A stretch of 64,000 nucleotides of DNA, from contig CP070686.1 in assembly GCA_020353055.1 (NCBI GenBank), positions 557,231-621,230 on the forward strand. Reading direction: 5' to 3'. The position numbers and the translations under genes were made by a program. The DNA comes from Caldifarciminota bacterium (GTDB lineage Bacteria; Hydrothermota; Tepidihabitantia; SM23-42). Shown here one piece after another: positions 12,228 through 38,057 of the stretch (the stretch's first letter is position 1; the number at the start of each line of letters is the position of its first letter). The notes under the pieces were generated by a model, which saw nothing but the letters and a program-made list of their open reading frames with translations, was not told where the DNA came from and searched no databases.

Positions 12228-12233
12228 TAGCGG

Positions 12234-12261
12234 ATTATAGATGAAATTGCAGAGAAGTCAA
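12234..12261 (-). promoter_or_regulatory. Promoter of the Lrp-like/M23 operon
   Basis: On the minus strand: TTGACT at 12261-12256, a 16-bp spacer, and TATAAT at 12239-12234. The GTG start codon at 12227 follows after 6 nt, giving a predicted leaderless transcript. Confidence 0.8.
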
Positions 12262-12360
12262 CTACTAAAAGCAGAAGCTGAGAATAGCAGAACTGACGAT
12301 AATGAAGTCCTTTGTACTTTTTTTGTTCTCGGCTTCGCTCTAACAGTAATCAGTTCGTAA

Positions 12361-12477
12361 CGATACCAACGGGATTAACGGTAATAGCGCAATCAACGAA
12401 CTGGACGATATTAACGGGACTAACGGAATTAACGAGAGTAGCGGGATTAACGAAAGTAACTGGCTAAACGAAAAAAA
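12361..12477 (+). repeat. Degenerate 9-bp tandem repeat, copy A (13 units)
   Basis: Thirteen consecutive 9-mers in perfect register, consensus CGGGATTAA (pattern CG-R-N-A-N-TAA). The flank immediately left is CAGTTCGTAA, nearly the same as at copy B (29372). It lies between the mnmE stop codon and the Lrp-like promoter. In one frame it spells Asn-Gly-Ile/Asn-Glu-Ser tripeptides, but no start codon precedes it. Confidence 0.85.
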
Positions 12478-20875: not shown

Positions 20876-21627
20876 GACTATTTGGATTTCTTCCCATCAG
20901 AGCAATAGATATCATCGACATAATCGTCGTCGCTTTTTTGCTCTATGCTTTCTTCAAATTCGTTAAAGGAACGAAAGCGACGTCGATTCTCGTCGGGCTG
21001 GTTCTTTTCTTCGTGATTTCTTTCATATCCCGCTGGCTGGACCTTAAGGCACTTTCCTGGATCATGAATTCAATACTCGCCCTCTGGGTCGTTGCTTTCG
21101 TTATCGTCTTTCAACCTGAGATCAGAAACGCCCTCGCGCGCATCGGGCGCCAGAGACCGGTAAAGTTCTTCTTGAAACTTGAAGAAGTGGGAGTCATGGA
21201 TGAAGTTATAGATGCCGTGAAGAAAATGTCAGATGATCGAATCGGCGCGCTAATAGTAGTACAAAAAAGCATCGGCTTGAAGGATATAATTGATACCGGT
21301 GTACACATTGACGCTCAGGTTAACTCGTCTATGTTGCGGACCATATTCTTCCCCGAAACCCCGCTACACGACGGGGCATGCGTGATTCAGGGGGACAAGA
21401 TAACCGCCGCAGGTTGCGTACTGCCCCTCAGCGAAAATCCAAGTTTAGGCATTACCTACGGGCTGCGCCACCGTGCGGCCCTTGGCATGGCTGAGCAAAG
21501 CGATGCACTCTGCATCGTGGTTTCGGAAGAGACAGGCAACATCGCGTATGCCTATAAGGGCAAGCTCCTCACAAAAGTCGATGTCGAATCCTTGAAGAAA
21601 TCAGTGGAAGCAATTATCCAAGATTGA
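20872..21627 (+). CDS. cdaA: Diadenylate cyclase (c-di-AMP synthase)
   Basis: A 251-residue CdaA-type protein: three N-terminal membrane helices (residues about 12-90), then the DAC domain with the catalytic DGA (PLHDGACVI) and RHR (GLRHRAALG) motifs, which makes c-di-AMP from two ATP. Membrane-attached, active site in the cytosol. The start overlaps folP. In many bacteria cdaA sits near cell-wall or folate genes. The matching PgpH-type phosphodiesterase is at 40631-42715, so synthesis and breakdown are both encoded in this window. Confidence 0.96.
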   Translation: MRLFGFLPIRAIDIIDIIVVAFLLYAFFKFVKGTKATSILVGLVLFFVISFISRWLDLKALSWIMNSILALWVVAFVIVFQPEIRNALARIGRQRPVKFFLKLEEVGVMDEVIDAVKKMSDDRIGALIVVQKSIGLKDIIDTGVHIDAQVNSSMLRTIFFPETPLHDGACVIQGDKITAAGCVLPLSENPSLGITYGLRHRAALGMAEQSDALCIVVSEETGNIAYAYKGKLLTKVDVESLKKSVEAIIQD

Positions 21628-21729
21628 AACCCGTTGCGGTACTGCCGCATGAAAATCAATTCATACAGAACAACCCGTCAAGAAGCGTGTGGTAAATCAA
21701 CAAGAATATCATATCGAGTTAGCAGCAGG

Positions 21730-21757
21730 TTGACACAAGAAATCATTTAATTAGAAT
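21730..21757 (+). promoter_or_regulatory. Promoter of the sppA operon
   Basis: TTGACA at 21730-21735, a 16-bp spacer, and TAGAAT at 21752-21757, followed by a GGAGGT ribosome site at 21765-21770. The leader is short. Confidence 0.75.
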
Positions 21758-21773
21758 ATTCCGCGGAGGTGTG

Positions 21774-22601
21774 ATGCAAACGAAACATATAGTAATCATT
21801 GCTGCGGCGATCGCAGTCATCATGGTCGGTGTGATCGTCGGCGTAGGTATGCGTGGTCCGTTACCAGGAGGAAGCATCGGTGTCGTTGAGATCGACAACA
21901 TTATCTACACACCGAAGCACATCGTTACGGATCTAAAGAATTTCGGCGATGACCCGGGGATAAAGGCGATTATCCTCAGAATAAATTCACCCGGCGGCGT
22001 TGTTGCCGCTTCTCAGGAGATCTTTGATGCGGTAAAACGTCAGCAGCAAAAGAAGCCGGTCGTAACGTCGATGGAGACTGTTGCCGCTTCAGGTGCCTAT
22101 TATATTGCTTTACCCAGCGACGTTATTATCGCCAACCCGGGTACAGTCACTGGATCAATCGGCGTGATAATGGAGTGGCCGGTCTTGGAAAAACTATTAC
22201 AGAAATTGGGCATTGAGTTCGAAGTAGTCAAATCAAAGGAACATAAGGACATTGGCTCTGCTTACCGAAGGCTGAACGAAAGAGAGAGAGAGTTGATGCA
22301 GGCGGTTGTCACGGATGTTTATGATCAATTCGTAAGGGTAACATCTGAGTACCGCAATATCCCACTGGACAGCGTACTAAAATATGCAGACGGCAGAGTT
22401 TTCACCGGGAACCAGGCGAAAGACCTTGGATTTATTGATACACTTGGCTCATTTGAGTTCGCAGTTGACCTTACGGGCGACCTGGTAAATATCGATGAAC
22501 CACATCTGGTATATCCAGCGAAGCGATTGAGTTTTGTCGATCTATTTCTCAAACCCATGGAACACATCACCTTACCCAAACTCTATTTCCTGTGGCGCTA
22601 A
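21774..22601 (+). CDS. sppA: Signal peptide peptidase SppA-type serine protease (S49)
   Basis: A 275-residue S49 peptidase that degrades leftover signal peptides in or at the membrane. An N-terminal membrane anchor (residues about 5-25) is followed by the crotonase-like fold: RINSPGGVVAASQEI, the nucleophile serine in VAASGAYYIA, VTGSIGVIM, and the lysine base in SKEHKDIGS. Length fits the short, single-domain SppA class. A GTG 3 nt upstream of the ATG at 21774 directly abuts the GGAGGT site, so I prefer the ATG. The 3' end overlaps the next gene. Confidence 0.93.
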   Translation: MQTKHIVIIAAAIAVIMVGVIVGVGMRGPLPGGSIGVVEIDNIIYTPKHIVTDLKNFGDDPGIKAIILRINSPGGVVAASQEIFDAVKRQQQKKPVVTSMETVAASGAYYIALPSDVIIANPGTVTGSIGVIMEWPVLEKLLQKLGIEFEVVKSKEHKDIGSAYRRLNERERELMQAVVTDVYDQFVRVTSEYRNIPLDSVLKYADGRVFTGNQAKDLGFIDTLGSFEFAVDLTGDLVNIDEPHLVYPAKRLSFVDLFLKPMEHITLPKLYFLWR

Positions 22602-22879
22602 AATCAAACATACTCGCAACTGCTATTTATGTTTTCTTTTCTGTCATGCTGGCGGTCATAACGTCTTGCGGTGGTCCTGACCGCACGAAAGTCTTGGCTC
22701 AGTATCTAATGGAAGTAAAACGCCTTAGGGACGACGGATTGAGTGGAATCGCGCTCCAGGACTCAATTAAAACAATGGAGAGTGCGTTTGGCATTGACCC
22801 AGAAGATGAAATCGCGAAACTCAGTGAAAACCCTGATGAGTGGGTGAAACTTCTGAAGGATTTGAAGCGTGGCCGGTAA
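22592..22879 (+). CDS. Small predicted lipoprotein
   Basis: A 95-residue protein starting with GTG inside the sppA 3' end. Residues 9-26 form a signal segment ending in a lipobox (VITSC), so Cys26 is probably lipidated and the rest (about 70 mostly helical residues: YLMEVKRLRDDGL, LKDLKRGR) faces the periplasm. I do not recognise a family. It overlaps both neighbours, consistent with a coupled operon with sppA and the GH84-like gene. Confidence 0.7.
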   Translation: MALKSNILATAIYVFFSVMLAVITSCGGPDRTKVLAQYLMEVKRLRDDGLSGIALQDSIKTMESAFGIDPEDEIAKLSENPDEWVKLLKDLKRGR

Positions 22880-23720
22880 GGTCTTCGGAGTAGTCGAAGG
22901 ATTCTACCGCCGGCCATACACATTCGATCAAAGACTCGACCTCATCGATTTTCTCAACAGTTTGAATCTCAATACCTATGTATATGGACCGAAAGCTGAT
23001 AAATTTCACCGTCGAAAGTGGCGTGAGAAGTACTCCGGCAAGAAAATACGAGAATTCGAGATCCTCAATCGACATTGTATCGAGCGTTCCATTAATTTCG
23101 TGTATGCGCTGAGCCCTGTCTACAGGACAGATATCGAAGAAGTCATTGAGAAAATAGAAACGCTCTTCGAAACTGGTATACGTCAATTCAGCATCTTTTT
23201 CGACGATATCAAGGTACCTTTAACAAAGGATACTGCAAAGAAACAAGTTGATGTCGTCAATGGTCTCTATGAATATCTCCAGGGAAGGATGAAAAAGACA
23301 CGTCTCTCCTTCTGTCCTACCCAGTATCATGGTTTCAAGAAGACTGAATACATCAAATATTTGGCGGCACACCTGCGGATGAACATCGATACCTTCTGGA
23401 CTGGCAAAAATGTCGTCTCGCAGACGATAACGGACAGAGAAGTTATCAGAATCAATGGAATACTAAGTCGACCAGTGTTGATATGGGACAACATCTTTGC
23501 AAATGACTATATTCCGGGTACGATTCTGCGTTTTCCCTATCGCAGACGCTCACCAGGAATAGTTGAACACACCAGGGGGATTCTCCTTAACCCTATGAAT
23601 AACTACCGTAAATCAAAGCCTTTGATCAAAACCGCTGCCATGTTCTTCCACAATCCACAAACCTATGATGCACGGAGGGCCTGGAACCTCGTTTCGGCTG
23701 AACAGAATAAGCAAACATAA
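22869..23720 (+). CDS. GH84-type beta-N-acetylglucosaminidase (O-GlcNAcase-like) domain protein
   Basis: A 283-residue stand-alone catalytic domain of the GH84/NAGidase family. Matching motifs are GVVEGFYRRPYT at the N-terminus, YGPKADKFHR, the catalytic Asp-Asp pair in FFDDI, FCPTQYHG, WTGKNVVSQTI, and the substrate-site IWDN...ND (IWDNIFANDY). Family members remove beta-linked N-acetylglucosamine by substrate-assisted catalysis. Unlike most bacterial GH84 enzymes it has no signal peptide and no extra domains, so it is probably cytosolic; substrate unknown. The GTG start overlaps the lipoprotein gene. Confidence 0.87.
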   Translation: MAGKVFGVVEGFYRRPYTFDQRLDLIDFLNSLNLNTYVYGPKADKFHRRKWREKYSGKKIREFEILNRHCIERSINFVYALSPVYRTDIEEVIEKIETLFETGIRQFSIFFDDIKVPLTKDTAKKQVDVVNGLYEYLQGRMKKTRLSFCPTQYHGFKKTEYIKYLAAHLRMNIDTFWTGKNVVSQTITDREVIRINGILSRPVLIWDNIFANDYIPGTILRFPYRRRSPGIVEHTRGILLNPMNNYRKSKPLIKTAAMFFHNPQTYDARRAWNLVSAEQNKQT

Positions 23721-23951
23721 TTAAACACACAGAGATACATACGTATGTAAATTACTATATATATGCCATATCATCCTATAATTCACAGTATTAAACGAAT
23801 TCTTAAACTGATTTCTAACAAAAAAGCAAATCAGTAATTGCCATTGTTCAAGGTGCATCCAGAAAGCTGCCTTGTGAGGAACCACGAATTAATTCGCCGG
23901 GATTGTTGACTTAAGGTCATATCCGACTATAATACTGAAAGGAGATTTAGC
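23721..23951 (+). other. Intergenic region containing the DUF3467 promoter
   Basis: 231 bp, AT-rich, without an open frame of note. It ends with the promoter at 23906-23933 and a GGAG ribosome site at 23941-23944. No terminator hairpin with a T tract is visible after the GH84 gene. Confidence 0.5.
23906..23933 (+). promoter_or_regulatory. Promoter of the DUF3467 gene
   Basis: TTGACT at 23906-23911, a 16-bp spacer, and TATAAT at 23928-23933; the ATG at 23952 has its own GGAG site, so this transcript carries a short leader. Confidence 0.8.
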
Positions 23952-24248
23952 ATGCAAGAACCAAAAACACCATTAAATATTGAAATAAGCCCTGAACAAT
24001 CCGAGGGGATATATTCCAATGGAGTAGGCATTCATCATACGCCTTCAGAATTTATCCTTGATTTTCTGCGTGTTCTCCCAGGAGCTCAAAAAGCAAAGGT
24101 CTTCACCCGTATCATCATGACGCCGCAGAACGTAATATTATTGAGAAATGCATTAGACGATAATGTCAAGAAATATGAGGAACGTTTTGGCAACATCAAA
24201 ATCTTCGGCAAAAACGAAAAAGAAATCGGTTTTAAGAAAAGTAATTGA
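23952..24248 (+). CDS. DUF3467 family protein
   Basis: A 98-residue protein of the DUF3467 type: a NIEISPEQSEGIYSNGVGI strand region, then HTPSEFILDFLRVLPG, and AKVFTRIIMTPQNVILLRNAL, followed by a charged helix. The family is widespread, small, cytosolic and of unknown function. Its 3' end overlaps the CCA-adding enzyme gene by 86 bp in a different frame. Confidence 0.9.
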   Translation: MQEPKTPLNIEISPEQSEGIYSNGVGIHHTPSEFILDFLRVLPGAQKAKVFTRIIMTPQNVILLRNALDDNVKKYEERFGNIKIFGKNEKEIGFKKSN

Positions 24249-25341
24249 TTTCTTCGTAAAATCGGAATATCACGCCTATCTGGTCGGCGGCTACGTACGA
24301 GACTCTACGTTAGGCAGAGAATCGGTTGATATTGATGTCGTAGTCGAAGGTGATGGTGTTAAGGCTGCTCGCTTATTGAACGCGAGTCTAAAGGGGAAAC
24401 TGACGAGCCACAATGAATTTGGTACGGCCTCGATCAGCATTGATAGTTATAGGGTCGACCTTGCTAGCGCCCGGACCGAAAAATACCCCTCTCCGGCACA
24501 TCTCCCCCATGTCTATCCATCAACGATAGTCGAGGACCTGAATCGCCGAGATTTCACAATAAATGCCATAGCGATGTCTATCTCAAAGGAGAATTTTGGG
24601 GAAATATTCGACCCGTTCGACGGTATGAGCGATATCAAAAGAAAATTGATAAGAATTCTTCATAGAAACAGTTTTGTGGACGATCCAACGCGTATTTTCC
24701 GGGCCCTGAGGTACAAGAATCGATTCGGATTCAAATTGGAGGACGAAACCGAGCGCCAGATGAAGCAGGCGGTAAAGGAAAGGATGGTTCAGAAACTAAG
24801 TGCCCAGCGCATCCTTAACGAACTCGGGTTAATATTCGCTGAAACATCATTCAAGGCAATGGTCAACGACCTGTCCCACTACGGTGTTATCGAGGTAAAA
24901 CGGAGTGAACTCAAACTGATGCCTGGATCCAGCAAACATGCTTTCTTTTTCTTGTTGTCGAGACTTCCGAGGAATGCTATTCCATTGTCAAAAGAAGACA
25001 GGAAGATCGTCGATGATTTTAGAAATATCACGGGCATCATGGCAAAATTGAGCAGAACGAGCAAAAGAAGCGCAATCTACTCGATCCTCTATCCGATGAC
25101 TGATGAGTTGATCGAAGCAATAGCGCTGCTAAAGCCTGAACTCACGGATAAGATAAAGACCTATCGTAGGATGCTTAAATTAAAACCGTTCATTACTGGT
25201 CAGGACCTGCGTAAATACAGAGTTGTACCAAGTAAATCATACGCGAAGGTCTTGAAAAAACTATTTGCTCTGCAACTCGACAGCAAATTCAAGAACCGCA
25301 AAGAAGCTATCGTTTACCTCAAGGCCAAAAAGAAAAGATGA
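24163..25341 (+). CDS. CCA tRNA nucleotidyltransferase / poly(A) polymerase family protein
   Basis: Up to 392 residues. A class II nucleotidyltransferase of the CCA-adding/PcnB family: LVGGYVRDSTLGRESVDIDVV holds the flexible G-G/R-D motif and the catalytic DxD, followed by RRDFTINAIAM, the FDGMSDIKRKLIRIL segment, and DDPTRIFRALRYKNRFG. It most likely adds or repairs the 3' CCA of tRNAs. The start is uncertain because the frame overlaps DUF3467 by 86 bp; ATG at 24163 or 24175, or TTG at 24187, are candidates and none can avoid the overlap without losing the GG motif region. The stop overlaps the M50 gene (ATGA). Confidence 0.92.
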   Translation: MSRNMRNVLATSKSSAKTKKKSVLRKVIDFFVKSEYHAYLVGGYVRDSTLGRESVDIDVVVEGDGVKAARLLNASLKGKLTSHNEFGTASISIDSYRVDLASARTEKYPSPAHLPHVYPSTIVEDLNRRDFTINAIAMSISKENFGEIFDPFDGMSDIKRKLIRILHRNSFVDDPTRIFRALRYKNRFGFKLEDETERQMKQAVKERMVQKLSAQRILNELGLIFAETSFKAMVNDLSHYGVIEVKRSELKLMPGSSKHAFFFLLSRLPRNAIPLSKEDRKIVDDFRNITGIMAKLSRTSKRSAIYSILYPMTDELIEAIALLKPELTDKIKTYRRMLKLKPFITGQDLRKYRVVPSKSYAKVLKKLFALQLDSKFKNRKEAIVYLKAKKKR

Positions 25342-25994
25342 ATCAGCTATTAGGCCTGGTCATTTCATTGCCGGCGATTCTGATGGTCATCACCGTACAT
25401 GAATATTTCCACGGCTATGTGGCATACCGCTTAGGTGACCCGACCGCAAAATTCGCGGGACGACTAACCTTGAATCCAATCAAACACATCGACCTTTTTG
25501 GATTTCTCGCATTTCTGCTATTCAGATTCGGATGGGCCAAACCTGTGCCAATCAATCCCTACAACTTTCGAGACATGAAAAAAGGAATGCTCTACACCTC
25601 ACTCGCGGGACCGCTGTCAAACTTCCTCTTCGCAATTCCATTGGGCATTCTGTTACGCGTATTCCCGGCGTTACTACAAAACAGTACACTTCTGCCAATC
25701 GGCGGGATTATCGGCTTGGGACTTTTCTATAGTCTGATATTATGCGCCTTCAATCTAATACCGATCCCGCCGCTTGATGGGTCCAAGGTCCTTTTCAGTC
25801 TCCTGCCTCCACGGTATGCCCACATTGAGTATTGGCTCGAAAGATACGGCTTCATGCTACTCATTGGACTGATATTCTTCGATCGAATAACAGGTATCCC
25901 CATATTATGGGGATGGATCGGACCTTTTGTGAGCATTTTCACGAGAATATTCGCAGGCACGCCGGCTTTTATGGCATTTCTCCGTTTTTTCTAG
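25338..25994 (+). CDS. Site-2-protease-like M50 membrane metallopeptidase
   Basis: A 218-residue rhomboid-size M50 protein with about six membrane helices. The zinc site is HEYFH (HExxH) in the first part, with the third ligand Asp in PPLDGSKVL where the family has NPDG/PLDGG. These short intramembrane proteases have no PDZ domain, unlike RseP at 46477-47796; substrates are unknown. The ATG overlaps the CCA gene stop. Confidence 0.9.
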   Translation: MNQLLGLVISLPAILMVITVHEYFHGYVAYRLGDPTAKFAGRLTLNPIKHIDLFGFLAFLLFRFGWAKPVPINPYNFRDMKKGMLYTSLAGPLSNFLFAIPLGILLRVFPALLQNSTLLPIGGIIGLGLFYSLILCAFNLIPIPPLDGSKVLFSLLPPRYAHIEYWLERYGFMLLIGLIFFDRITGIPILWGWIGPFVSIFTRIFAGTPAFMAFLRFF

Positions 25995-26048
25995 TATAGT
26001 GTCATTGTCAAATCATGATTTCACACAAGCAAAGAATAGGGGGACATA

Positions 26049-28349
26049 ATGAGCAGAGTCATTAAGATCACAATAGCCATAGTCTCCATAGTAGTAATCT
26101 TGATTTTCGCAGGTTACGTGGCAATCAGGTCATTTCTTACACCAGAAAGAGCGCGACGGGTAACCGAACAGATCGCCACTCAATCTCTGCAACGTCCAGT
26201 CAAGGTTGGTAGGGTCAACCTGTCAATCGGTTTTAAGATCTCGATAAGCGTGAGCGACGTATCAGTTCCCAATGTCGAAGGATTCAGCACTCAGCCAATG
26301 ATCCAGATAGAAAGAACCTTGCTCAATCTAAAATTGCTGCCATTGCTGCAAAGACGTATCGTGATCGGCAGCATCAATTTTGACCAGCTCACGCTGAACC
26401 TGGAACGCAACACCGACAAGGAACTGAATATACTCGCGTTGATGCCGAAAGAAGCAAAGGGGCCAGGATGGGCCATTTCACTGGACAAGCTGCACCTCAA
26501 AAAATGCGAGTTCAAATATTATGATGCAGTGACCAAGTCCGAGTACAGGCTGCACGACATCAACCAGGAAATCCGTTTCAGACAAAGTCTGATATCGATC
26601 AAGGGAAATCAACGTGCGCTTGTGCCCAACAACAAAATATTGCCAGAAAAGGACATCCTTATCGAAAACGCCGTCGAATACGACACCTCATCGAAAGACG
26701 TACGCATAAGGAGTTTTAAAGTACGTCTTGATCCAGCATTGCTAACCGTTTCAGGCAGTATCAATAAAAGCAGATTATTCGATCTTGATGGTGAAATATC
26801 AGTGAAGGATATGTCCAAGGCTCTCGAACTTCTGCCTGATGAGTACCGCTTCGAAAGGCTCAACGGAGCCGTCAATGGCACGTTCTCTTTATCGGGGACT
26901 ACTGAAGAGCCAAAGATTGAAGGAACATGTGAAATCAAAGATGTTACGGTCATGCCAAAAGGCATGATCCGCGCTGCAGAGAAGATAAACGGAACCTTGT
27001 CATTCAACCGCAGCAGCGTCCGGGATATCATTATAGGGGGCAAGATAGGGAAAACAGAATTCAACATCGCAGGGTATGTTACAAATCTCGACTCACCCAC
27101 ACCTCTATTGAATATCACGACAAGACTCAACGGTAATTTGCAGGACCTTCAATCGATAACACCTGAAACGAAAGATATCAAGTTATCGGGCATCCTCGCC
27201 ACCGACATATCATTGAAAGGTACTCTGAAGAATCCAAAGTACTTCGGAGACATCAGCATTGGAGACGCATCGATCGACGGTATCGGCTTGGGCAAACCGG
27301 TGAGCGGCTTAAGCATCAAAGGAAATATCCAGAATGATGCAGTAAGAATCAGCGAATGCCGTGGACGAATCGGCAAATCCGATTTCTCGCTCAGCGGTTT
27401 CGTCTCAAACTTCAAGAAGCCGGTAGTGCAAATAAATAGCCGCTCAAATCTCATTGATCTCGATGAATTACTTCCCCCAAAGGGGACCGCTGCCGGATCA
27501 TCCGGAAAAGGCACCGCGGGTAAGCCGATACCCCTGACTTTACAGGGTAATGTCATCATCAACAGACTGACTGGAATAGACATGGAATTCACCAATGTCA
27601 ATGCAAATTTCAGTTATGTCGATGGAATAATTGATCTCAAGAATTGTCGCGCGCAGGCTTTCGACGGGCAAGTCTACTTTGACTTTTACTACAATGCTTA
27701 CAGCCCTGAGCCCTATCGGATCAATACGAGAATGACATCTGTGCAAGCACAGAAGATAACGAAGAGATTTCTTGGCTTTGACCGAATAAAGGGTAATCTC
27801 AGCGGCATCGCAAACTTGAATGGAAACGGTTTGGATCAACAATCTGTCCGGTCTAACATCAACGGATCAGGAAACCTGAAGATTACCAATGGCGAATTCA
27901 ACAACTTTGATTTTCTGATGAAACTCTTGGCGTGGATGGGTCTGAAGGACCAGAAGGTCGTGAAGTTCAATGATTTTAATACTGGTTTCAGAATCGCTAA
28001 CGGACGCGCCATCGCAGACGACTGGACACTCTCAGCGCGAGTAGGGAATTTTCTGACCAAGGGAACCATCGGGTTGAACGGTGTGGTCGACTTGCGCATA
28101 GCGATAACACTTTCAAAGCATTACTCAGATATAGTCAAAGGCTATCACGGAGACTGGATATTCTTTTCTGACAAAGACGGCCGTACCGTGGTCGATGTCA
28201 TTGCCAAGGGAAAATTCAACGCGCCACAATTCACTCTCGACCGTAACAGCATACAGCAGCGGATAAAAGGAAATATCAAAAATGAGTTCGACAAGAAGAT
28301 AAAGGATTTCGAATCAAATTTGAAAGATATCCTGAAGGGTATAAAATAG
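26049..28349 (+). CDS. AsmA-family (AsmA/TamB-like) envelope protein
   Basis: A 766-residue protein with one N-terminal membrane anchor (residues about 5-27) and a long beta-rich periplasmic body, including the AsmA_2-like C-terminal part (GNLSGIANLNGNGLD, NGRAIADDWTLS, GVVDLRIAI). AsmA-family proteins form long grooved bridges thought to carry phospholipids between the membranes of diderm bacteria. A GGGGGACATA ribosome site precedes the ATG. The C-terminus ends in a charged helix (KDFESNLKDILKGIK). It supports a diderm cell plan and is followed closely by mutM. Confidence 0.88.
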   Translation: MSRVIKITIAIVSIVVILIFAGYVAIRSFLTPERARRVTEQIATQSLQRPVKVGRVNLSIGFKISISVSDVSVPNVEGFSTQPMIQIERTLLNLKLLPLLQRRIVIGSINFDQLTLNLERNTDKELNILALMPKEAKGPGWAISLDKLHLKKCEFKYYDAVTKSEYRLHDINQEIRFRQSLISIKGNQRALVPNNKILPEKDILIENAVEYDTSSKDVRIRSFKVRLDPALLTVSGSINKSRLFDLDGEISVKDMSKALELLPDEYRFERLNGAVNGTFSLSGTTEEPKIEGTCEIKDVTVMPKGMIRAAEKINGTLSFNRSSVRDIIIGGKIGKTEFNIAGYVTNLDSPTPLLNITTRLNGNLQDLQSITPETKDIKLSGILATDISLKGTLKNPKYFGDISIGDASIDGIGLGKPVSGLSIKGNIQNDAVRISECRGRIGKSDFSLSGFVSNFKKPVVQINSRSNLIDLDELLPPKGTAAGSSGKGTAGKPIPLTLQGNVIINRLTGIDMEFTNVNANFSYVDGIIDLKNCRAQAFDGQVYFDFYYNAYSPEPYRINTRMTSVQAQKITKRFLGFDRIKGNLSGIANLNGNGLDQQSVRSNINGSGNLKITNGEFNNFDFLMKLLAWMGLKDQKVVKFNDFNTGFRIANGRAIADDWTLSARVGNFLTKGTIGLNGVVDLRIAITLSKHYSDIVKGYHGDWIFFSDKDGRTVVDVIAKGKFNAPQFTLDRNSIQQRIKGNIKNEFDKKIKDFESNLKDILKGIK

Positions 28350-28373
28350 AAACCGCGATGGAAGCAGGAGCAC

Positions 28374-29198
28374 GTGCCGGAACTCCCAGAAGTTGAGACT
28401 ATCGCGCGCGAGTTACGTCCTAAAATCCGTGGCAAGACGATCACCAACTGCATTGTATTGCGGCCAGATGTCATTGCCCATCCCAAACCACAGCAGTTCT
28501 GTAATGCTATAGTTGGCGATAAAATCCAGGAAGTCAGCAGAAGGGCAAAATATTTGATCTTGCACCTCGGTGACGAGAAAAAATTAGTCTTCCACCTGCG
28601 CCTCTCCGGGACCATGGTCATTGGGCCATCGCATAGTGAACCTCATAGATTTTCACGTCTTGTCTTAGTGCTGAATGACTGCCAGCTACTGTTCAACGAG
28701 CCGCGGGTGCTGGGCCGCGTATACCTGATAAGAGCAGATGACATTCCACCCAATTTGAAGGGATTCTACAACCTTGGATGTGAGCCGATATCCGATGATT
28801 TCACAGCGGATTACTTGAAGACCAAGATAAAACATAGGAAGGCCAGGATTAAATCACTTCTCCTCGATCAAAACATCTGCGCCGGCATGGGCAATATCTA
28901 TTCTGACGAAGCTCTTTTCCGCGCCGGCATCAGACCTTTAAGGAGGGCTAACCGAATAACGTTGAAAGAGATAAGTAAACTTACAAAAGCGTTGAGAGAC
29001 ATCATAACCGAAGGGATTCTTAACTTCGGCACATCTGTTTCAGATTACACAAGGACGAACGGAAAAAACGGCAACTTTCAGAATTTTCTCTGCGTTTACG
29101 GGCGCGAGGGTGAACCTTGTAGAAAGTGCGGTACATTGATAGTGCTCAAAAAGATCGGCAACCGCGGCACGAGATACTGCCCGAAGTGCCAACGTTGA
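28374..29198 (+). CDS. mutM: Formamidopyrimidine-DNA glycosylase
   Basis: A 274-residue Fpg/MutM base-excision repair enzyme (8-oxoguanine and formamidopyrimidine glycosylase/AP lyase). After the initiator come the catalytic Pro-Glu (PELPEVETIARELRP), HLRLSGTM, the H2TH segment ICAGMGNIYSDEALFRAGI, and a C-terminal zinc finger C-x2-C...C-x2-C (PCRKCG, YCPKC). The GTG start at 28374 is fixed by the need for Pro2. It begins 24 bp after the AsmA-like stop. Confidence 0.97.
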   Translation: MPELPEVETIARELRPKIRGKTITNCIVLRPDVIAHPKPQQFCNAIVGDKIQEVSRRAKYLILHLGDEKKLVFHLRLSGTMVIGPSHSEPHRFSRLVLVLNDCQLLFNEPRVLGRVYLIRADDIPPNLKGFYNLGCEPISDDFTADYLKTKIKHRKARIKSLLLDQNICAGMGNIYSDEALFRAGIRPLRRANRITLKEISKLTKALRDIITEGILNFGTSVSDYTRTNGKNGNFQNFLCVYGREGEPCRKCGTLIVLKKIGNRGTRYCPKCQR

Positions 29199-29371
29199 CC
29201 ACGGAAAGACGAGAAATTAGGAAAATCAGAACATAAGAGGATACATACAAAATATCGGCACAGGAACTTCGTTCGGTTTAATCCAGGACCGCCGCTTCAC
29301 TCTCTACGCCACAAGCGTGAAGCTGAACATATCCGAATAACCGAATTTCTAATGACCAAAACAGTTGGTAG

Positions 29372-29479
29372 CGCTACTAACGATATTAGCGAAAATATCG
29401 GGCATAACGAAGTTAAGTAAATTAACGGGAGCAACGAGCTAAACGGCATTAACGAAAGTAGCGAGATTAACGTATTAAT
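29372..29479 (+). repeat. Degenerate 9-bp tandem repeat, copy B (12 units)
   Basis: Twelve consecutive 9-mers with the same pattern as copy A (CG-R-N-A-N-TAA, for example CGGCATTAA, CGAGATTAA). It is preceded by CAGTTGGTAG, matching copy A's flank at 8 of 10 positions. It runs toward the valS promoter. Register is lost after 29479 (an 8-nt unit), and one more unit-like 9-mer follows. Confidence 0.85.
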
Positions 29480-29513
29480 GCACTAAACGATCGTAATGTA
29501 TTCTCGTCGCACG

Positions 29514-29541
29514 TTGACACAACCACACAAATGTGTATATT
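29514..29541 (+). promoter_or_regulatory. Promoter of the valS operon
   Basis: TTGACA at 29514-29519, a 16-bp spacer, and TATATT at 29536-29541, with the ATG 6 nt later at 29548; predicted leaderless. Confidence 0.75.
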
Positions 29542-29547
29542 TACTCT

Positions 29548-32145
29548 ATGATAGAATTTCCCACTCGTTATGACCCTGGCGGAATCGAGAAAAAATGGTA
29601 CCGTTTTTGGATGGAATCGAAGTTCTTTACGCCTGACGCCAGCTCTAAGAAACCGCCCTACACCATCATGATACCGCTGCCCAATGTGACGGGACGCCTT
29701 ACTCTTGGGCATGTGTTGAACAATTCTCTGCAGGACATACTGATAAGGTACAAGAAGCTTTCGGGCCACGAAACACTGTGGCTAATGGGTATGGACCATG
29801 CGGGCATAGCTACGCAGGTGGTGGTAGAAGAAAAACTGCGCAGTCAGGGAATGACTAAAGAGGACCTGGGTCGTGAAAAATTCATAGAGGAAGTCTGGAA
29901 ATGGAAAGAAGAATACGCGAAGATCATCAGAGGACAATTACAGAAAGCTGGATACTCACTGGACTGGTCACGCGAACAGTTTACGTTATCTGAGAATTAT
30001 TCCAAGAAAGTGATAAAGGTATTCGTCGACCTGTACAATAGAGGGCTGATTTATCGCGGCGAATATATTATCAACTGGTGCCCAAGGTGTCTGACCGCAC
30101 TATCTGACGAACAGGTCGAGACCGAAGAGAAACCCGGTAAGCTATACTATATCAAGTACCCGGTGGTCGGCAGTGATGAATCAATAACCGTTGCCACAAC
30201 AAGACCCGAAACAATGCTCGGTGATACGGCCGTTTGCGTTAATCCTCAAGACAAGCGTTACAGAAGGTTTATCGGCCGACGGGCTATCCTGCCGATCATG
30301 GAGAGGGAAATACAAATCATTTCCGATGAATATGTTGACCCGGAATTCGGAACCGGTGCGTTGAAGGTCACTCCAGCGCACGACCCATTTGATTTCGAAT
30401 TGGCAAAAAAACACAAGTTAGAATTCATCGATATCATGAACCCGGATGGTACTCTGAACGCACTCACCAGAGGGTTCAACGGGCAGGACCGTTATGAAGC
30501 AAGAAAGCAGATCATCGAACAGCTGAAACGGTCTGGCTTGCTGGAAAAAGTAGAGAAATACAAATTGCCTCTATCCAAGTGCGAACGCTGCGACACGGCA
30601 ATTGAGCCGCGAATATCAAAACAATGGTTTGTGCGAATGAAACCGCTCGCCGAACCGGCGCTGAAAGTTGTAAAGGGAAACAAGGTACGTATATTTCCAA
30701 AGCGATGGGTCAATCTATATAATTATTGGATGGAAAATGTGCGGGACTGGTGCATCTCCCGACAACTCTGGTGGGGACATCGAATACCAGTGTATTACTG
30801 CAATTCATGCTATGATCCTGACAGCGCCGATTCAGAACAGGGCATCATGGTTTCTGAAGCAAAACCCGCTCGATGCACAAACTGCGGTTCAAATGAAATC
30901 TATCAGGATGAAGACGTCCTCGACACCTGGTTCTCTTCCTGGCTCTGGCCTTTTGCTACGCTCGGTTGGCCTGACGATAGCAAGGATTACCGTCGTTTCT
31001 ACCCCACACAAACACTTGTTACGGGGTGGGATATAATCTACTTATGGGTTGCACGTATGATCATGGCAGGGCTCGAATTTACCAAGACAGTTCCGTTCAC
31101 CAACGTCATGTTTCATGTCATGGTCCGCGATGAAAAGGGAAGAAAGATGTCGAAAAGTCTGGGTAATTCACCGGACCCAGCGAATCTCATAGAGAAGTAT
31201 GGAGCCGATGCCTTGAGGTTTGGTTTGTTACTGATAACACCGCGTGAACAGGATGTTCTCTTTCGGGAAAATTCGATTGACGTCGGGAGAAAATTCTGTA
31301 ATAAGCTATGGAATGCCGCGCGCTTGATATCCATGACTCTGGAGCAGGGTGAAGCATTCGATCCCAAAAAAATATCATTATACGACGCATGGATTATAGA
31401 GCGTTTCAACCTGCTACTAATGAAGATCCAAGGGCATTTTAATTCTTTTGAAATAAATGCAATAACCCGGGAACTTTATGATTTTGTCTGGCATACCTTC
31501 TGCGACTGGTACCTGGAATTTCTTAAGATAAAACCTTCCCCGGCTGCAAGACACCTTTTGAAGCAACTGTTGATAGTGCTACACCCGTTCATGCCGTTCG
31601 TCACCGAAGAATTATACCAGAAGTTCGGTTTCAGCCAAAAGAGCATCATGCTTGAGACATGGCCTGATGAGATTCCCATCACAAATAAGGCAGCGCAAGT
31701 GGATCAACTAGTAAGGTTGATTGAGGAGATACGTAATGTCCGCGGAATTTTCAACATAGGGGTAAAAGACAAAATCACGGTGATTATCGACACGAAAGAT
31801 GACATGGCCGTTTTTCTAAAGGAAAACGAGGATACCATAAAAAGACTATCGGGCGCCGGAGACGTGAAGTACGGTCCACCCGGTAAAGAATCCCTCGCCA
31901 GCATCATACTGCCGGAGATAGAGTGCTATGTAATCCTGTCGGGCATCGACCTCGCAAGGGAAAAGGAACGTCTTCACAATGAGGTCGATTTCCTCACAAA
32001 ACGCATCGACGAAATAAAACATCGGCTTAATAATCCAAGTTACGTGAACAAAGCAAGTGAGATAACCAGACAGAAGGAAAAAGAACGTCTTGAAACCTTC
32101 TTGAAGAAAAAAGAAGGTATTCAGAAAGCGATGAAAAGAATATGA
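29548..32145 (+). CDS. valS: Valine--tRNA ligase
   Basis: An 865-residue class I aminoacyl-tRNA synthetase. The HIGH-type motif appears as PNVTGRLTLGHVLNN, the KMSKS loop as GRKMSKSLGN, and the CP1 editing domain as TTRPETMLGDTAVCV. Cys pairs near residues 415-450 (CNSC, CTNC) suggest a zinc knuckle. A C-terminal coiled coil is present. The start at 29548 (MIEFPTRYDPGGIEKKW) lies just after the -10 box; the ORF's earlier TTG/ATG codons fall within the promoter. The stop overlaps the next gene (ATGA). Confidence 0.97.
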   Translation: MIEFPTRYDPGGIEKKWYRFWMESKFFTPDASSKKPPYTIMIPLPNVTGRLTLGHVLNNSLQDILIRYKKLSGHETLWLMGMDHAGIATQVVVEEKLRSQGMTKEDLGREKFIEEVWKWKEEYAKIIRGQLQKAGYSLDWSREQFTLSENYSKKVIKVFVDLYNRGLIYRGEYIINWCPRCLTALSDEQVETEEKPGKLYYIKYPVVGSDESITVATTRPETMLGDTAVCVNPQDKRYRRFIGRRAILPIMEREIQIISDEYVDPEFGTGALKVTPAHDPFDFELAKKHKLEFIDIMNPDGTLNALTRGFNGQDRYEARKQIIEQLKRSGLLEKVEKYKLPLSKCERCDTAIEPRISKQWFVRMKPLAEPALKVVKGNKVRIFPKRWVNLYNYWMENVRDWCISRQLWWGHRIPVYYCNSCYDPDSADSEQGIMVSEAKPARCTNCGSNEIYQDEDVLDTWFSSWLWPFATLGWPDDSKDYRRFYPTQTLVTGWDIIYLWVARMIMAGLEFTKTVPFTNVMFHVMVRDEKGRKMSKSLGNSPDPANLIEKYGADALRFGLLLITPREQDVLFRENSIDVGRKFCNKLWNAARLISMTLEQGEAFDPKKISLYDAWIIERFNLLLMKIQGHFNSFEINAITRELYDFVWHTFCDWYLEFLKIKPSPAARHLLKQLLIVLHPFMPFVTEELYQKFGFSQKSIMLETWPDEIPITNKAAQVDQLVRLIEEIRNVRGIFNIGVKDKITVIIDTKDDMAVFLKENEDTIKRLSGAGDVKYGPPGKESLASIILPEIECYVILSGIDLAREKERLHNEVDFLTKRIDEIKHRLNNPSYVNKASEITRQKEKERLETFLKKKEGIQKAMKRI

Positions 32146-32552
32146 AGTATATAGGCTGGATAATCGCCATTTTGTTGTTCGCACTACTGTTATATACATA
32201 TCGCACAAAATACGCACCGCTGCAGAAGGACGTCACCGAATTGCGTGAAGAAATCTCAATGTGGGAAGATGTCCTGAGAGGCGAGAAAGGTGTAAAAGGT
32301 GAACGCCAGCGATTTGCCACTGATCGATTCTTTGACAATGATAAACTCACACCATTTGCCGAAGTAGAAATTCTACGCAAATTCGATATGCGCAATAGGG
32401 GAATCGAAATCTATCTGACCGCGCCGAACGCTTTCACGCGAGCAGGTGATCTCCTCAGATTTTTCTCTGAGCAACATATTAAGTACCGTAATCTTTCATT
32501 GTACGCTGCTGTAGATTCCATAGAACGTTTTGAGTACAAGTTCATTAAGTGA
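32142..32552 (+). CDS. Membrane-anchored coiled-coil protein, unknown function
   Basis: 136 residues: an N-terminal membrane helix (about 4-22), a short coiled coil (LQKDVTELREEISMWEDVL), then a compact C-terminal domain of about 70 residues. The layout resembles bitopic division or pilus-assembly proteins, but no family is recognised. It is coupled to valS by an ATGA overlap and to the next gene by a GTGA overlap. Confidence 0.7.
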   Translation: MKYIGWIIAILLFALLLYTYRTKYAPLQKDVTELREEISMWEDVLRGEKGVKGERQRFATDRFFDNDKLTPFAEVEILRKFDMRNRGIEIYLTAPNAFTRAGDLLRFFSEQHIKYRNLSLYAAVDSIERFEYKFIK

Positions 32553-32923
32553 TACCCTACCTCTGTAAAGGAAGAACCCTACCTTGTCTGCTACTGCTGC
32601 TCTTGGTTCTCTCAGGCTCCGCGCAGGCGGAAAAAAACGCGAATATAGCAATGCTACTATGTGTATTCCCCGGCGGTGGTCAATTCTACACGGAACAGTA
32701 CGTAACTGGTGTGGTCATCGGAGCCGCTGAAATCGCGCTCGGCTACTACGCTTACAAATATCACCGTGAAGAGGATTACACACGACGTAATTCTATGCTT
32801 TGGTGGGGATTATTCACCTTCGGTTTTTCACTGGCCGATGCGTATGTCGGTGCTAAGATGCATGGTTTTGATGTGGAAACTGATATAGATAAGGTAAGTT
32901 TGAGCTACAAGATAAGATTTTAG
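32549..32923 (+). CDS. Exported small membrane protein (DUF5683-like)
   Basis: A 124-residue protein with a signal peptide (to about residue 27, SGSAQA) followed by a FPGGGQFYTEQYVTG motif, typical of DUF5683/TM2-like proteins, and two more hydrophobic segments. Function unknown. The GTG start overlaps the preceding stop codon (GTGA). It is the end of the valS operon and is convergent with ligA. Confidence 0.72.
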   Translation: MIPYLCKGRTLPCLLLLLLVLSGSAQAEKNANIAMLLCVFPGGGQFYTEQYVTGVVIGAAEIALGYYAYKYHREEDYTRRNSMLWWGLFTFGFSLADAYVGAKMHGFDVETDIDKVSLSYKIRF

Positions 32924-33032
32924 AACAGCTGGTTAATACTGCATGACCTGGGTCATCAGACCGATATCTCAGGCATCTCGTTACGGAAAATCAGTCAAGA
33001 CACATCCCAGAGTACTGGACAATTTTGATCGA

Positions 33033-35072
<2,040 letters not shown>

Positions 35073-35089
35073 CATTTGGAAAAATAATG

Positions 35090-35117
35090 TTGACTTTATT
35101 GTGTGAATGTATAGAAT
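35090..35117 (+). promoter_or_regulatory. Promoter of nadB
   Basis: TTGACT at 35090-35095, a 16-bp spacer, and TAGAAT at 35112-35117; the ATG at 35124 follows after 6 nt. Only 17 bp separate its -35 box from that of ligA. Confidence 0.8.
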
Positions 35118-35123
35118 TACCTA

Positions 35124-36659
35124 ATGCCTAAGCAGGTAGATTTTCTAGTAGTAGGTTCGGGCATTGCCGGCTTGACTTTTGCTACCAAAGCAGCCAAGTA
35201 TGGTAAAGTATCAGTCCTCACCAAGAAAAGGAAGGCGGATTCCAGTACTAACTATGCTCAGGGTGGAATCGCAGCTGTATTTGGTAAAGAGGATGCTCCC
35301 GAGTATCATATAGCAGATACCATCAAGGCAGGCGAAGGCCTGTGCCACAATGATGCGGTCGCTACAATGGTACGCGAAGGTCCTGCATTGGTCAAAGAAC
35401 TGCATTCTATGGGATGTCGGTTCTCTATGAATTCCAATGGGAACTTCGATCTCGGAAGAGAAGGTGGCCATTCTAAAAGGCGCATTGTACACGCAAAAGA
35501 CTTTACCGGGCAGGAGATCGAACGAGTTCTGCTTGAGGAGACTAAGAAAGTTGGGGTGATCATCAGTGAAAATGAAATCGCCCTCGACCTTCTAATACAG
35601 AACGGTGATTGCCTCGGAATTTACTACCTTGATGCTGATACTCGTCAAATTGACGTTATTTACGCAAACGCAACAGTTCTGGCAACTGGCGGCGTAGGAC
35701 AGGTGTACCAGCATACCACAAACCCACCGATTGCCACGGGCGACGGTATTGCGATGGCTTACCGTGCTGGCGCAATGATTGCGAATATGGAATTCGTGCA
35801 ATTTCACCCAACTGCGGTATACAACATTAAGATAGATGGCCGTTCGTTTCTGATTTCGGAAGCCGTCCGCGGTGAAGGTGGCGTGTTGAAGACGAAGGAC
35901 GGAATCGCATTCATGGAGAAATACGCCCCTGCCGGAAATCTCGCACCCCGTGATGTTGTTGCCCGGGCATGTTTGAGTGAAATGATCGCGACCAACGCCA
36001 AATACGTACTGCTTGACGTATCTCATCTCCAGGCGGATTTCATCAAGAATCGGTTCCCTACCATATACGAAACCTGTCTCTCCTGGGGTATCGATATCAC
36101 CCGTGAACCGATTCCAGTTGTACCGGCGGCACACTATCTGTGTGGAGGGATATTCGTCAACGAATGGGCAGAATCCTCGATACCAAGATTGTTCGCGCTG
36201 GGTGAATGCAGTTGCACAGGCGTGCACGGAGCGAATCGTCTGGCTTCGAACTCCCTGCTTGAAGCACTGGTTTTCGCAAGCCGAGCCTCAGAGCGAGTAA
36301 AGAAGATCAACGACATTCACCCGACAGAAAAACTACACATCAGAAAAAGTGCCAAAACAGGTCCGAACTTGATGTTCCAGATCAAAGAAATAATGGACGA
36401 GAATGTCGGGTTGATCAGAAACGAAAAAACACTACTTACGGCAAAAGCAACGATCGATAAATTCCAAGCCTGTTTTGAGGATGGGATCCACATAATCAAT
36501 GCCGAGTCGCGCAACACATCTGTGATTGCGCAAATCATCATCGAGAGCGCGCTAGAACGTAAAGAATCACGTGGGCTGCATTATATGACTGATTTTCCGA
36601 AAAAAAACAGTAAATATTGCAGCGATACCATAAAGCACATCGATGTTAAACACGATTGA
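35124..36659 (+). CDS. nadB: L-aspartate oxidase
   Basis: A 511-residue flavoprotein that oxidises L-aspartate to iminoaspartate, the first step of de novo NAD synthesis. The FAD-binding Rossmann motif is VVGSGIAGLTFATKAAKYG, followed by STNYAQGGIAAV, GREGGHSKRRIVHAKD, the active-site FHPTAVY and SEAVRGEGG, and the C-terminal GECSCTGVHGANRLASNSLLEALVF. In anaerobes fumarate can serve as electron acceptor. nadA and nadC are not in the window. Predicted leaderless mRNA. Confidence 0.96.
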   Translation: MPKQVDFLVVGSGIAGLTFATKAAKYGKVSVLTKKRKADSSTNYAQGGIAAVFGKEDAPEYHIADTIKAGEGLCHNDAVATMVREGPALVKELHSMGCRFSMNSNGNFDLGREGGHSKRRIVHAKDFTGQEIERVLLEETKKVGVIISENEIALDLLIQNGDCLGIYYLDADTRQIDVIYANATVLATGGVGQVYQHTTNPPIATGDGIAMAYRAGAMIANMEFVQFHPTAVYNIKIDGRSFLISEAVRGEGGVLKTKDGIAFMEKYAPAGNLAPRDVVARACLSEMIATNAKYVLLDVSHLQADFIKNRFPTIYETCLSWGIDITREPIPVVPAAHYLCGGIFVNEWAESSIPRLFALGECSCTGVHGANRLASNSLLEALVFASRASERVKKINDIHPTEKLHIRKSAKTGPNLMFQIKEIMDENVGLIRNEKTLLTAKATIDKFQACFEDGIHIINAESRNTSVIAQIIIESALERKESRGLHYMTDFPKKNSKYCSDTIKHIDVKHD

Positions 36660-36695
36660 TACCAAGAGTGATGTGTCAACTAAATAGGAAAAAGG

Positions 36696-36983
36696 ATGGA
36701 ACAAGGAGAATTTGAGGTTTTATTAGAAGTAGGTCAGGCTTATTTGCTTAGCAAAGATTATGATAAAGCAATAACCAAGTTCAGTGAGGCGCTGAGGATA
36801 AACCCTCACGACCCGGAAACATACTACTATCTGGGACTCGCATACGAAGGCGCAGAAAAATATGCGGAAGCTGCGCAGACATACGAGAAAACGCTAAAAA
36901 TCGACCGCGGTCATGGCAATGCTGAAATTCGCCTGAACGAAGTCCAGAAGAAAATCGCAGAAGCAAAAAAGAAAAAGAAATGA
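36696..36983 (+). CDS. Tetratricopeptide-repeat protein
   Basis: A 95-residue protein with two TPR units (AYLLSKDYDKAITKFSEALRINP and TYYYLGLAYEGAEKYAEAAQTYEK) and a lysine-rich tail. TPRs mediate protein contacts. It is the first gene of a tight TPR/zinc-ribbon/J-domain/83-residue-protein cluster: its stop codon overlaps the zinc-ribbon start (ATGA). Confidence 0.9.
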   Translation: MEQGEFEVLLEVGQAYLLSKDYDKAITKFSEALRINPHDPETYYYLGLAYEGAEKYAEAAQTYEKTLKIDRGHGNAEIRLNEVQKKIAEAKKKKK

Positions 36984-37120
36984 TCTGCCCGAGGTGCCGA
37001 CGGAAGATGACAGAAAAACGCGGCACACATCATAAAAAGAAAAAGTATGTTTGCTCTAAGTGCGGCAAGGTTCGTTTCATTCAATTGAAGCATAGAAAGG
37101 TTGTTAATGTTGGAGGCTAA
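36980..37120 (+). CDS. Small zinc-ribbon protein
   Basis: A 46-residue basic protein starting MICPRC with two CxxC knuckles (CPRC at 3-6, CSKC at 25-28) spaced like a zinc ribbon and a lysine-rich linker (HHKKKK). It probably binds one Zn and may contact nucleic acid or a protein. Translationally coupled to the TPR gene. Its stop TAA (37118-37120) is 2 nt before the likely start of the J-domain gene, and its last codons include that gene's GGAGG ribosome site. Confidence 0.8.
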   Translation: MICPRCRRKMTEKRGTHHKKKKYVCSKCGKVRFIQLKHRKVVNVGG

Positions 37121-37122
37121 AT

Positions 37123-37770
37123 ATCAAGTCGGATAATTATTACAGCATATTAGGACTCATGCAAAATGCAACTCTTGGAGAGATCAAAAAGGCCTATCTT
37201 GCTCTCGTACAAGAATACCACCCGGACCGTTTCGCCGATGGAAAGGAGAAACAGAAAGCCCATGAAATATTTGCCCGCGTCACAGCCGCCTACCGTACCC
37301 TTTCAGATGAGAAACTCCGTTCAAAATATGACCAGTCTCTGGCCAAATATACCACCGATGCAGATGAAGCAAAGGAAATCCAGGCAAAGAATCTATTCAA
37401 CCGAGCGGTAGATCACATAAACAATGGTGAAGCGTGGCCTGCATTGAATCTACTGCGTACTGCATATAGCTATGACATGCGCCCGATCTATCTATCATAC
37501 CTCGGACTTGCGCAAGTATACACCAAGCGAAACCAGTCTGACGGTTTCAAGAAACTCGAACATGCGCTGAAAAAAGAATTGTTCAACCCGACGATGCATT
37601 ATAACCTTGGGCTCGCATTGGAGTTCGTCGGCAAGACAAAGGAAGCCATTCGTGCATATCAACAAACGCTCACCTGGGATCCAAAACATAAGCGGGCAAG
37701 ATTAGGGATCGTACGTCTGAGCGCCTCGAAGAAAGGATTTATTTCCAAACTCTTCGGAGGCAGCAAGTGA
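37123..37770 (+). CDS. J-domain (DnaJ-like) protein with TPR-like tail and non-standard start
   Basis: About 215 residues. An N-terminal J domain (DNYYSILGL, helix II, HPD in EYHPDRF, then YRTLSDEKLRSKYD) stimulates DnaK-type chaperones; the rest has TPR-like repeats (LSYLGLAQVYTKRN, MHYNLGLALEFVGKTKEAIRAYQ). The first in-frame ATG (37159) would delete J-domain helix I, which is encoded in frame upstream with no ATG, GTG or TTG. The best start is ATC at 37123, 6 nt after a GGAGG sequence. The stop overlaps the next gene (GTGA). Confidence 0.85.
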   Translation: MKSDNYYSILGLMQNATLGEIKKAYLALVQEYHPDRFADGKEKQKAHEIFARVTAAYRTLSDEKLRSKYDQSLAKYTTDADEAKEIQAKNLFNRAVDHINNGEAWPALNLLRTAYSYDMRPIYLSYLGLAQVYTKRNQSDGFKKLEHALKKELFNPTMHYNLGLALEFVGKTKEAIRAYQQTLTWDPKHKRARLGIVRLSASKKGFISKLFGGSK

Positions 37771-38018
37771 AGAAAACACCTACACTGGCCCTCTTCGAGG
37801 AACTGTGCGAGAAGTTGTCGATTGTCGTCAAATACGATAGGTTCTTCGGCAAAGGAGGTTACTGCCGATTGCGGGATAAATCCTACTTCATTATCAACGA
37901 AAGACTCTCGAGCGAGGCAAAGGAACACATATTCCTTCATGAAATGCGGAGTATCGAACTAAAGGATGTTGCATTACCTTCGAAGTTGAAGGAATTATTT
38001 GAAAAAAAATGCTCCTGA
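37767..38018 (+). CDS. Uncharacterised small protein coupled to the J-domain gene
   Basis: An 83-residue protein starting with GTG in a GTGA overlap. It contains GKGGYCRLRDKSYFIINERLS and AKEHIFLHEM. I do not recognise a named family; its close coupling to the J-domain gene suggests a shared role. The last four codons and the stop double as the A-rich side and 5' arm of a terminator for the opposite strand (38002-38029). Confidence 0.65.
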   Translation: MKKTPTLALFEELCEKLSIVVKYDRFFGKGGYCRLRDKSYFIINERLSSEAKEHIFLHEMRSIELKDVALPSKLKELFEKKCS

Positions 38019-38029
38019 AAAAGGAGCAT
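38002..38029 (-). terminator. Intrinsic terminator of the CNNM operon
   Basis: A perfect 7-bp stem ATGCTCC/GGAGCAT (38009-38015 and 38023-38029) with a 7-nt loop. On the minus strand it is followed by eight Ts. It lies 29 bp past the stop codon of the last CNNM-type gene and overlaps the convergent small gene. No T tract on the plus side, so it acts one way. Confidence 0.85.
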
Positions 38030-38057
38030 AGGCAAATTCCGCATATCACCAATCATA

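Follow-up and report, generated by a model that had tools for sequence, protein, structure and literature searches.

Introduction

Intergenic direct repeats with the unit TAACTGA have been described from marine Beggiatoaceae, Cyanobacteria and Bacteroidetes (MacGregor 2015, PMC4679880). Those of Beggiatoaceae are the closest published case to the arrays reported here. A sequence-only reading of a 64,000-nucleotide stretch of a Caldifarciminota genome (hereafter, the window) had pointed to two copies, A and B, of a 9-bp repeat, copy B lying upstream of valS. In this study, copies A and B were identified as two members of a family of degenerate 9-bp arrays that is spread over the whole genome and restricted to one clade.

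Like the TAACTGA repeats (PMC4679880), these are short direct-repeat arrays found genome-wide and mostly in intergenic DNA (148 of 163 here), patchily distributed across phyla, with a unit that starts with TAAC, an array end close to a gene edge, and a proposed binding protein. The unit of the TAACTGA repeats is a fixed 7 bp, and most of them face a start codon within a few nucleotides (PMC4679880); that of the arrays here is a degenerate 9 bp, TAACGRDAN, and 67 arrays face starts and 81 face stops. Unlike the TAACTGA repeats, the start-facing arrays here tend to stop before the −35 box, and the arrays are coupled to REP-like palindromes. The arrays thus belong to the TAACTGA-repeat kind and differ from it in unit, degeneracy and placement rule.

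Three other repeat types bear comparison. Cyanobacterial short tandemly repeated repetitive (STRR) sequences are dispersed tandem arrays of degenerate heptamers; the arrays here likewise have degenerate short units in dispersed tandem arrays, but units of 9 bp, and STRR sequences are not known to have an outward polarity. REP/BIME mosaics and REPINs are palindromic intergenic modules with RAYT transposases. The arrays resemble them in being part of an intergenic mosaic with palindromic REP-like modules, in genomes that carry Y1 transposases; unlike REP/BIME modules, the TAACGRDAN unit is non-palindromic and tandem, and unlike in REPIN/RAYT systems, no link to a RAYT gene was found at three Y1 loci of the window genome. 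Staphylococcal STAR elements are also interspersed intergenic direct repeats. A literature search found no description of a 9-bp TAACG array among the titles listed, some of which seemed to be mainly chance hits, primers for instance, and none of tandem repeats in WOR-3.

Results

The nine-base repeat of copy B was recovered both by direct reading and by a position-weight chain finder. Array B lies on the plus strand at 29369 to 29493 of the window (score 95) and consists of 14 imperfect TAACGRDAN units with the 3′ end toward valS; it contains one 8-bp step near its end and is more degenerate than most arrays of the family. The extent first given, 29362 to 29479, covers the flank and 12 units, and the array runs about 14 bp further. 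Array A (12358 to 12474, plus strand, score 117) has 13 units and ends 17 nt from the stop codon of mnmE (12492 to 13838, minus strand, assigned by Pfam), which faces its 3′ end. The sequence-only reading was right that the two arrays share the unit pattern and the window strand, and that copy A lies between minus-strand genes, namely mnmE and an ORF starting at 12227. The latter gene starts at GTG 12227, has a −10 box about 6 nt before the start codon (region of about 12227 to 12262) and seems leaderless.

The 10-nt left flanks, AATCAGTTCG for array A (12348 to 12357, plus strand) and the CAGT-type AAACAGTTGG for array B (29359 to 29368, plus strand), are identical at 8 of 10 positions, as had been noticed; random 10-mers reach at least 8/10 identity at a rate of 0.00025. 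CAGT occurs in the 14 nt 5′ of 29 of 163 arrays, compared with 5 of 163 at a control distance. The two-unit pattern TARCGNNANTARCGNNAN, with at most one mismatch, occurs 14 times in the window, whereas shuffles lead one to expect 0.73 (5 in the highest shuffle); 13 of the 14 fall inside array A or B. A weak array-like stretch at 50167 to 50202 (score 24) lies within a predicted gene and is probably due to chance.

Array B separates mutM/fpg (formamidopyrimidine-DNA glycosylase; 28374 to 29198, plus strand) from valS (valyl-tRNA synthetase; 29548 to 32145, plus strand), both assigned by Pfam. The valS promoter, TTGACA-N16-TATATT at 29514 to 29541 on the plus strand, was aligned by eye in eight genus genomes. 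Its −35 box is 34 bp from the end first given for copy B, as claimed, and 20 bp from the last recognisable unit. The ORF list places the valS start at GTG 29533. Since ATG 29548 sits only 6 nt after the −10 box, valS is probably leaderless. This arrangement of −10 box and start codon looks kept among the genus genomes.

The window genome (G000, 2.69 Mb) belongs to the candidate WOR-3 lineage. Locus coordinates identify its congener G007 as candidate division WOR-3 bin1351 (CP070802.1), a name that NCBI now files under Caldifarciminota. The exact three-unit pattern has 66 matches in G000, and the reversed pattern has none. Two species of the same genus, G003 and G007, have 144 and 55 matches, respectively; among the other five genus members, one has a single match and four have none. 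Overall, 12 of 61 genomes searched, G000 included, contain an exact three-unit match, and the four-unit pattern matches 7 of 147 genomes of the phylum (control, 0). The matches in G000 are biased in strand (48 plus, 18 minus), a bias absent in G003 and G007. At a score of at least 22, the selected stretches and the window contain 65 arrays in G000, 38 in G007 and 57 in G003, densities that are biased upward because the stretches were picked for exact matches; the reversed controls gave none, and the chain finder found no array in 247 kb of reversed sequence. In 204 kb of G000, comprising the unselected stretches and the window, there were 3 arrays at a score of at least 30. An intergenic lag-9 autocorrelation peak appeared in the selected stretches of the three array species and only faintly in the unselected stretches of G000 (0.275 versus a median of 0.266). 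Base preferences at all nine unit positions are similar in G000, G003 and G007, position 6 being a purine in 94% of inner units.

Among the 163 arrays, 148 are intergenic with two neighbours, 13 lie in predicted coding sequence and 2 at stretch ends; some of the 13 probably reflect wrong start calls. A search of Rfam with the arrays gave no match. A dense array cluster in L148-L149 (G000:C1:1188000-1222000) surrounds secreted-type genes, including a peptidase C25 with Por_Secre_tail, FG-GAP, and M1 and M14 peptidases.

Array polarity was scored against genes predicted by a simple codon-usage script rather than a standard caller, excluding the 13 coding and 2 stretch-end arrays. The 3′ end of the array is nearer to a gene in 125 of 148 cases and the 5′ end in 23 (p = 3.6e-18). 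In other words, the TAACG strand runs out of the spacer toward a gene, and it is the spacer rather than transcription that sets this strict polarity. Where the flanking genes are co-directional, 57 arrays lie antisense to them and 44 sense. Arrays therefore keep no fixed orientation to transcription, as had been proposed from the two copies; this mixture favours a DNA-level element over a leader or simple terminator, in agreement with the same proposal. What the proposal missed is that orientation nevertheless follows a rule: each array tends to be directed outward, at the functional edge closest to it, and orientation is kept at orthologous loci.

More than one array block is present in 27 of 120 spacers. 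All 8 pairs of opposed neighbours that share a spacer diverge, and none converges; some same-strand neighbour pairs ('++' and '--') represent a single array broken into blocks. Of 88 single arrays, 69 are confined to the final 40% of the spacer, measured along the direction of the array. A hidden second array at the far edge, as expected of terminal inverted arrays, was ruled out, because none of 101 far edges of single-orientation spacers had even a weak outward array (score of at least 12).

Of the 67 arrays that face starts, 37 have a −35/−10 pair no more than 60 nt beyond their 3′ end (mirrored control, 5), and 27 end within 20 nt of such a pair. Over the same 60 nt, a promoter pair was found for 8 of the 81 stop-facing arrays (control, 10), and the median distance from their 3′ end to the stop codon is 37 nt. 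From these promoter-pair counts and stop-codon distances, arrays tend to end where selected sequence begins, at a −35 box or a stop codon.

Outward polarity was also seen in 8 of 9 arrays of three other WOR-3 genera, one further array lying in coding sequence. In Firestonebacteria, a gene edge is nearer in 25 of 28 of the 9-bp arrays among the matches listed, a count that excludes 1 coding and 7 edge cases. The outward-read unit there, RAACGTTAN, shares the AACGNNANN frame with TAACGRDAN. Short RAACGTTAN arrays (outward strand) lie beside gene edges at L043, L050, L103 and other Firestonebacteria loci, and the inner end is TAACGTAAA or similar on the other strand. Alistipes/Rikenellaceae arrays gave 5 clean cases, too few to judge polarity.

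The spacer upstream of valS carries an array of 14 units in G000, 5 in G003 and 4 in G007. In the five other genus members (G001, G002, G004, G005 and G006), no array is present there, although the promoter region is conserved. The mnmE site has 13 units in G000, 18 in two blocks in G003 and 4 in G007, and none of the same five species has an array at this site. The valS spacers of array-less species (L170, L171, L172, L173 and L174) contain other degenerate short repeats of 7 or 8 bp, such as AGTATCR, and lag-7 autocorrelation is high in the spacers of G006 and G009. In G007, valS itself is split into residues 1–165 and 159–870 almost 1 Mb apart (G007:C1:1221842-1222336 and 2183946-2186078), through an assembly error or a rearrangement.

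Among 23 syntenic spacers, arrays occur on both sides in 16, in G000 only in 4 and in the other genome only in 3, the count of 16 being biased upward because these stretches were picked for exact matches. Of the 16 shared spacers, 15 contain one or more pairs of like orientation, and in the remaining one, a weak case, the orientations are opposite. In 13 orthologous pairs drawn from these spacers, the gene-proximal last unit is the most conserved (0.68 versus 0.47, permutation p = 0.0002), and conservation counted from this end fades by the fourth to fifth unit. Counted from the 5′ side, the first (p = 0.023) and fourth (p = 0.008) units are above non-orthologues.

The analysis of unit turnover started from 166 blocks, of which those with fewer than 3 units and 3 near-duplicate arrays were dropped. 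Adjacent units are identical in 7 of 518 cases, compared with 19.7 expected from a pool shuffle or 8.7 from a within-array shuffle, and neighbours are less alike than chance at the variable bases. Seven pairs of duplicated composite mosaics differ at 14% of flank positions. Within their units, positions 2, 4, 5 and 8 differ at 2–7%, position 1 at 9%, positions 3 and 6 at 23% and 26%, and positions 7 and 9 at 52% and 42%, respectively. This slow core with fast variable bases fits whole-unit exchange or replacement, with the core kept by selection or homogenisation. Unit strings common to separate loci within a genome are in weak excess (k = 3: 1 pair, null 0.2); those common between genomes are in clearer excess (6 versus 0.4) and are partly orthologues. 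The variable positions have no codon pattern by eye and the arrays lie outside conserved genes, so that a coding-gene remnant was rejected. The slipped coding remnant in relatives that the sequence-only reading had set against its own interpretation did not appear either; the arrays are nearly all intergenic and bear no slippage signature.

A REP-like palindrome, TCATTGCGAG...GAAGCAATCTCAG, lies directly 5′ of many arrays (L148, L149, L163, L164 and others). Within 120 nt of its right arm, 19 arrays lie 3′ of the arm and share its orientation, and 6 lie 5′ of it and have the opposite one; the other two arrangements of side and orientation were found for none. Around the left arm, 14 arrays on the 3′ side share its orientation and 2 are opposite, and on the 5′ side 12 are opposite and 1 is the same, giving 3 of 29 exceptions to the right-arm rule.

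Composite mosaics of about 85–280 bp including an array are duplicated within G000 at 73–88% identity. The earlier suggestion of a mobile array thereby gains partial support. Y1_Tnp (Y1 transposase) is present in all eight genus genomes, array-bearing or not; it was rejected as a distinguishing mobiliser, being no rarer in the five species that have an array at neither the valS nor the mnmE site. At three Y1 loci of G000 no REP-array composite adjoined the transposase gene, and one weak array (score 26) and one GCAATCTC arm were nearby. Three exact 141-bp repeats between distant places of G000 (L151/L152, the pair that includes an array, L154/L166 and L159/L252) are probably assembly k-mer overlaps, and were left out of the evidence for copying. 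Reverse-transcriptase-templated, telomere-like repeats were rejected, with RVT_1 in 0 of 8 genus genomes versus 3 of 14 control genomes.

Discussion

The arrays are dispersed, inherited, polar, conserved in the core and coupled to REP-like modules. We tentatively favour, at somewhat short of an even chance, an explanation in which they form the polar end of an intergenic mosaic and a protein-bound row at the gene border. Each array would be that end of a mosaic intergenic repeat which lies closest to the gene and points outward, with REP-like palindromes and other short repeats occupying the 5′ side. Such an array may act at the DNA level by offering a series of binding sites to a sequence-specific protein that reads TAACGNNA, and the bound row might mark or insulate the line at which selected sequence gives way to spacer filler. 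At valS, the array would immediately precede a promoter that is probably leaderless, and would stay outside the mRNA. Against this explanation, start- and stop-facing arrays have no obvious common regulatory role, five genus members manage without an array at the valS and mnmE sites, the REP left arms are less regular than the right arms, 13 of 163 arrays fall in predicted coding sequence, and array B is more degenerate than most.

A close rival to the boundary explanation is a polar mobile mosaic of BIME or MITE type that has no function, in which the array is the terminal module, the transposase acts in trans, and the observed polarity combines that of the element with purifying selection along the edges of genes. 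A function-free insertion element with the array at one end would account for the polarity equally well, and unit exchange among arrays, rather than selection, could likewise produce a slow core beside fast variable positions. The duplicated array-bearing composites, the polar coupling of REP and array, and the Y1 transposases of all eight genus genomes agree with this possibility. However, the same transposases are as common where arrays are lacking at both sites, no composite adjoins the three Y1 loci, array cores vary less than the element flanks, and weak outward arrays are missing from all 101 far edges. We consider the mobile mosaic possible, and less probable than the protein-bound border.

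An RNA-level role is unlikely. The reverse complement, NUHYCGUUA, would place YC every 9 nt in an unstructured RNA, like a Rho-utilisation site that terminates polymerase entering from the gene edge. The short distance to the stop codon in half of the stop-facing arrays (37 nt or less) and the position-6 purine are consistent with this, as are terminator-like hairpins no more frequent than chance in two 20-kb samples (15 sites versus 18.3 in shuffles for window positions 20000 to 39999; 20 versus 16.5 for L148), and 6 of 8 folded array strands were no more stable than shuffles. But 67 of the 148 arrays face starts, where only antisense transcripts would be affected, relatives have no general C-over-G excess at spacer edges, and one array (L164:3398-3512) folds better than shuffles on both strands (z about −2.4), probably owing to an inner inverted segment. 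A Rho-like role may be possible for the stop-facing half only, and skew and structure argue little for it.

It is more improbable still that the arrays are rows of activator-binding sites, comparable to an UP-like enhancer, for an adjoining promoter such as that of valS. The 27 of 67 start-facing arrays that end within 20 nt of a −35/−10 pair would suit such a role, but 81 of 148 arrays face a stop codon, with promoters ahead no commoner than in the control, and the valS promoter is retained without an array in five relatives. A promoter-activating role fits only the start-facing arrays. Recent replication slippage of a neutral minisatellite, for which the tandem 9-bp layout and the interspecific variation in unit number might speak, is rejected as very improbable, because neighbouring units differ more than chance, one common unit recurs at far more than 100 loci of three species and also at some loci in other genera, and the arrays are strictly polar.

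Returning to the protein-bound border, a broader proposal is rather doubtful at present: that AACGNNANN arrays pointing outward and ending at a −35 box or stop codon constitute a new polar class of boundary element in several WOR-3 families and, as RAACGTTAN, in Firestonebacteria, read by a putative DNA-binding protein of 9-bp periodicity that would separate spacer transcription or chromosome packaging from genes. Short intergenic direct repeats have been recorded in several phyla, mostly without a placement rule. The arrays described here have one: their measurable polarity is linked to whichever functional element of the adjacent gene comes first, promoter or stop codon, and is kept at orthologous sites despite unit turnover, and the rule seems to extend to another phylum. 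If a protein reads the arrays, a new boundary or insulator system would be exposed; if none does, the arrays would show selection at gene edges shaping non-functional intergenic mosaics.
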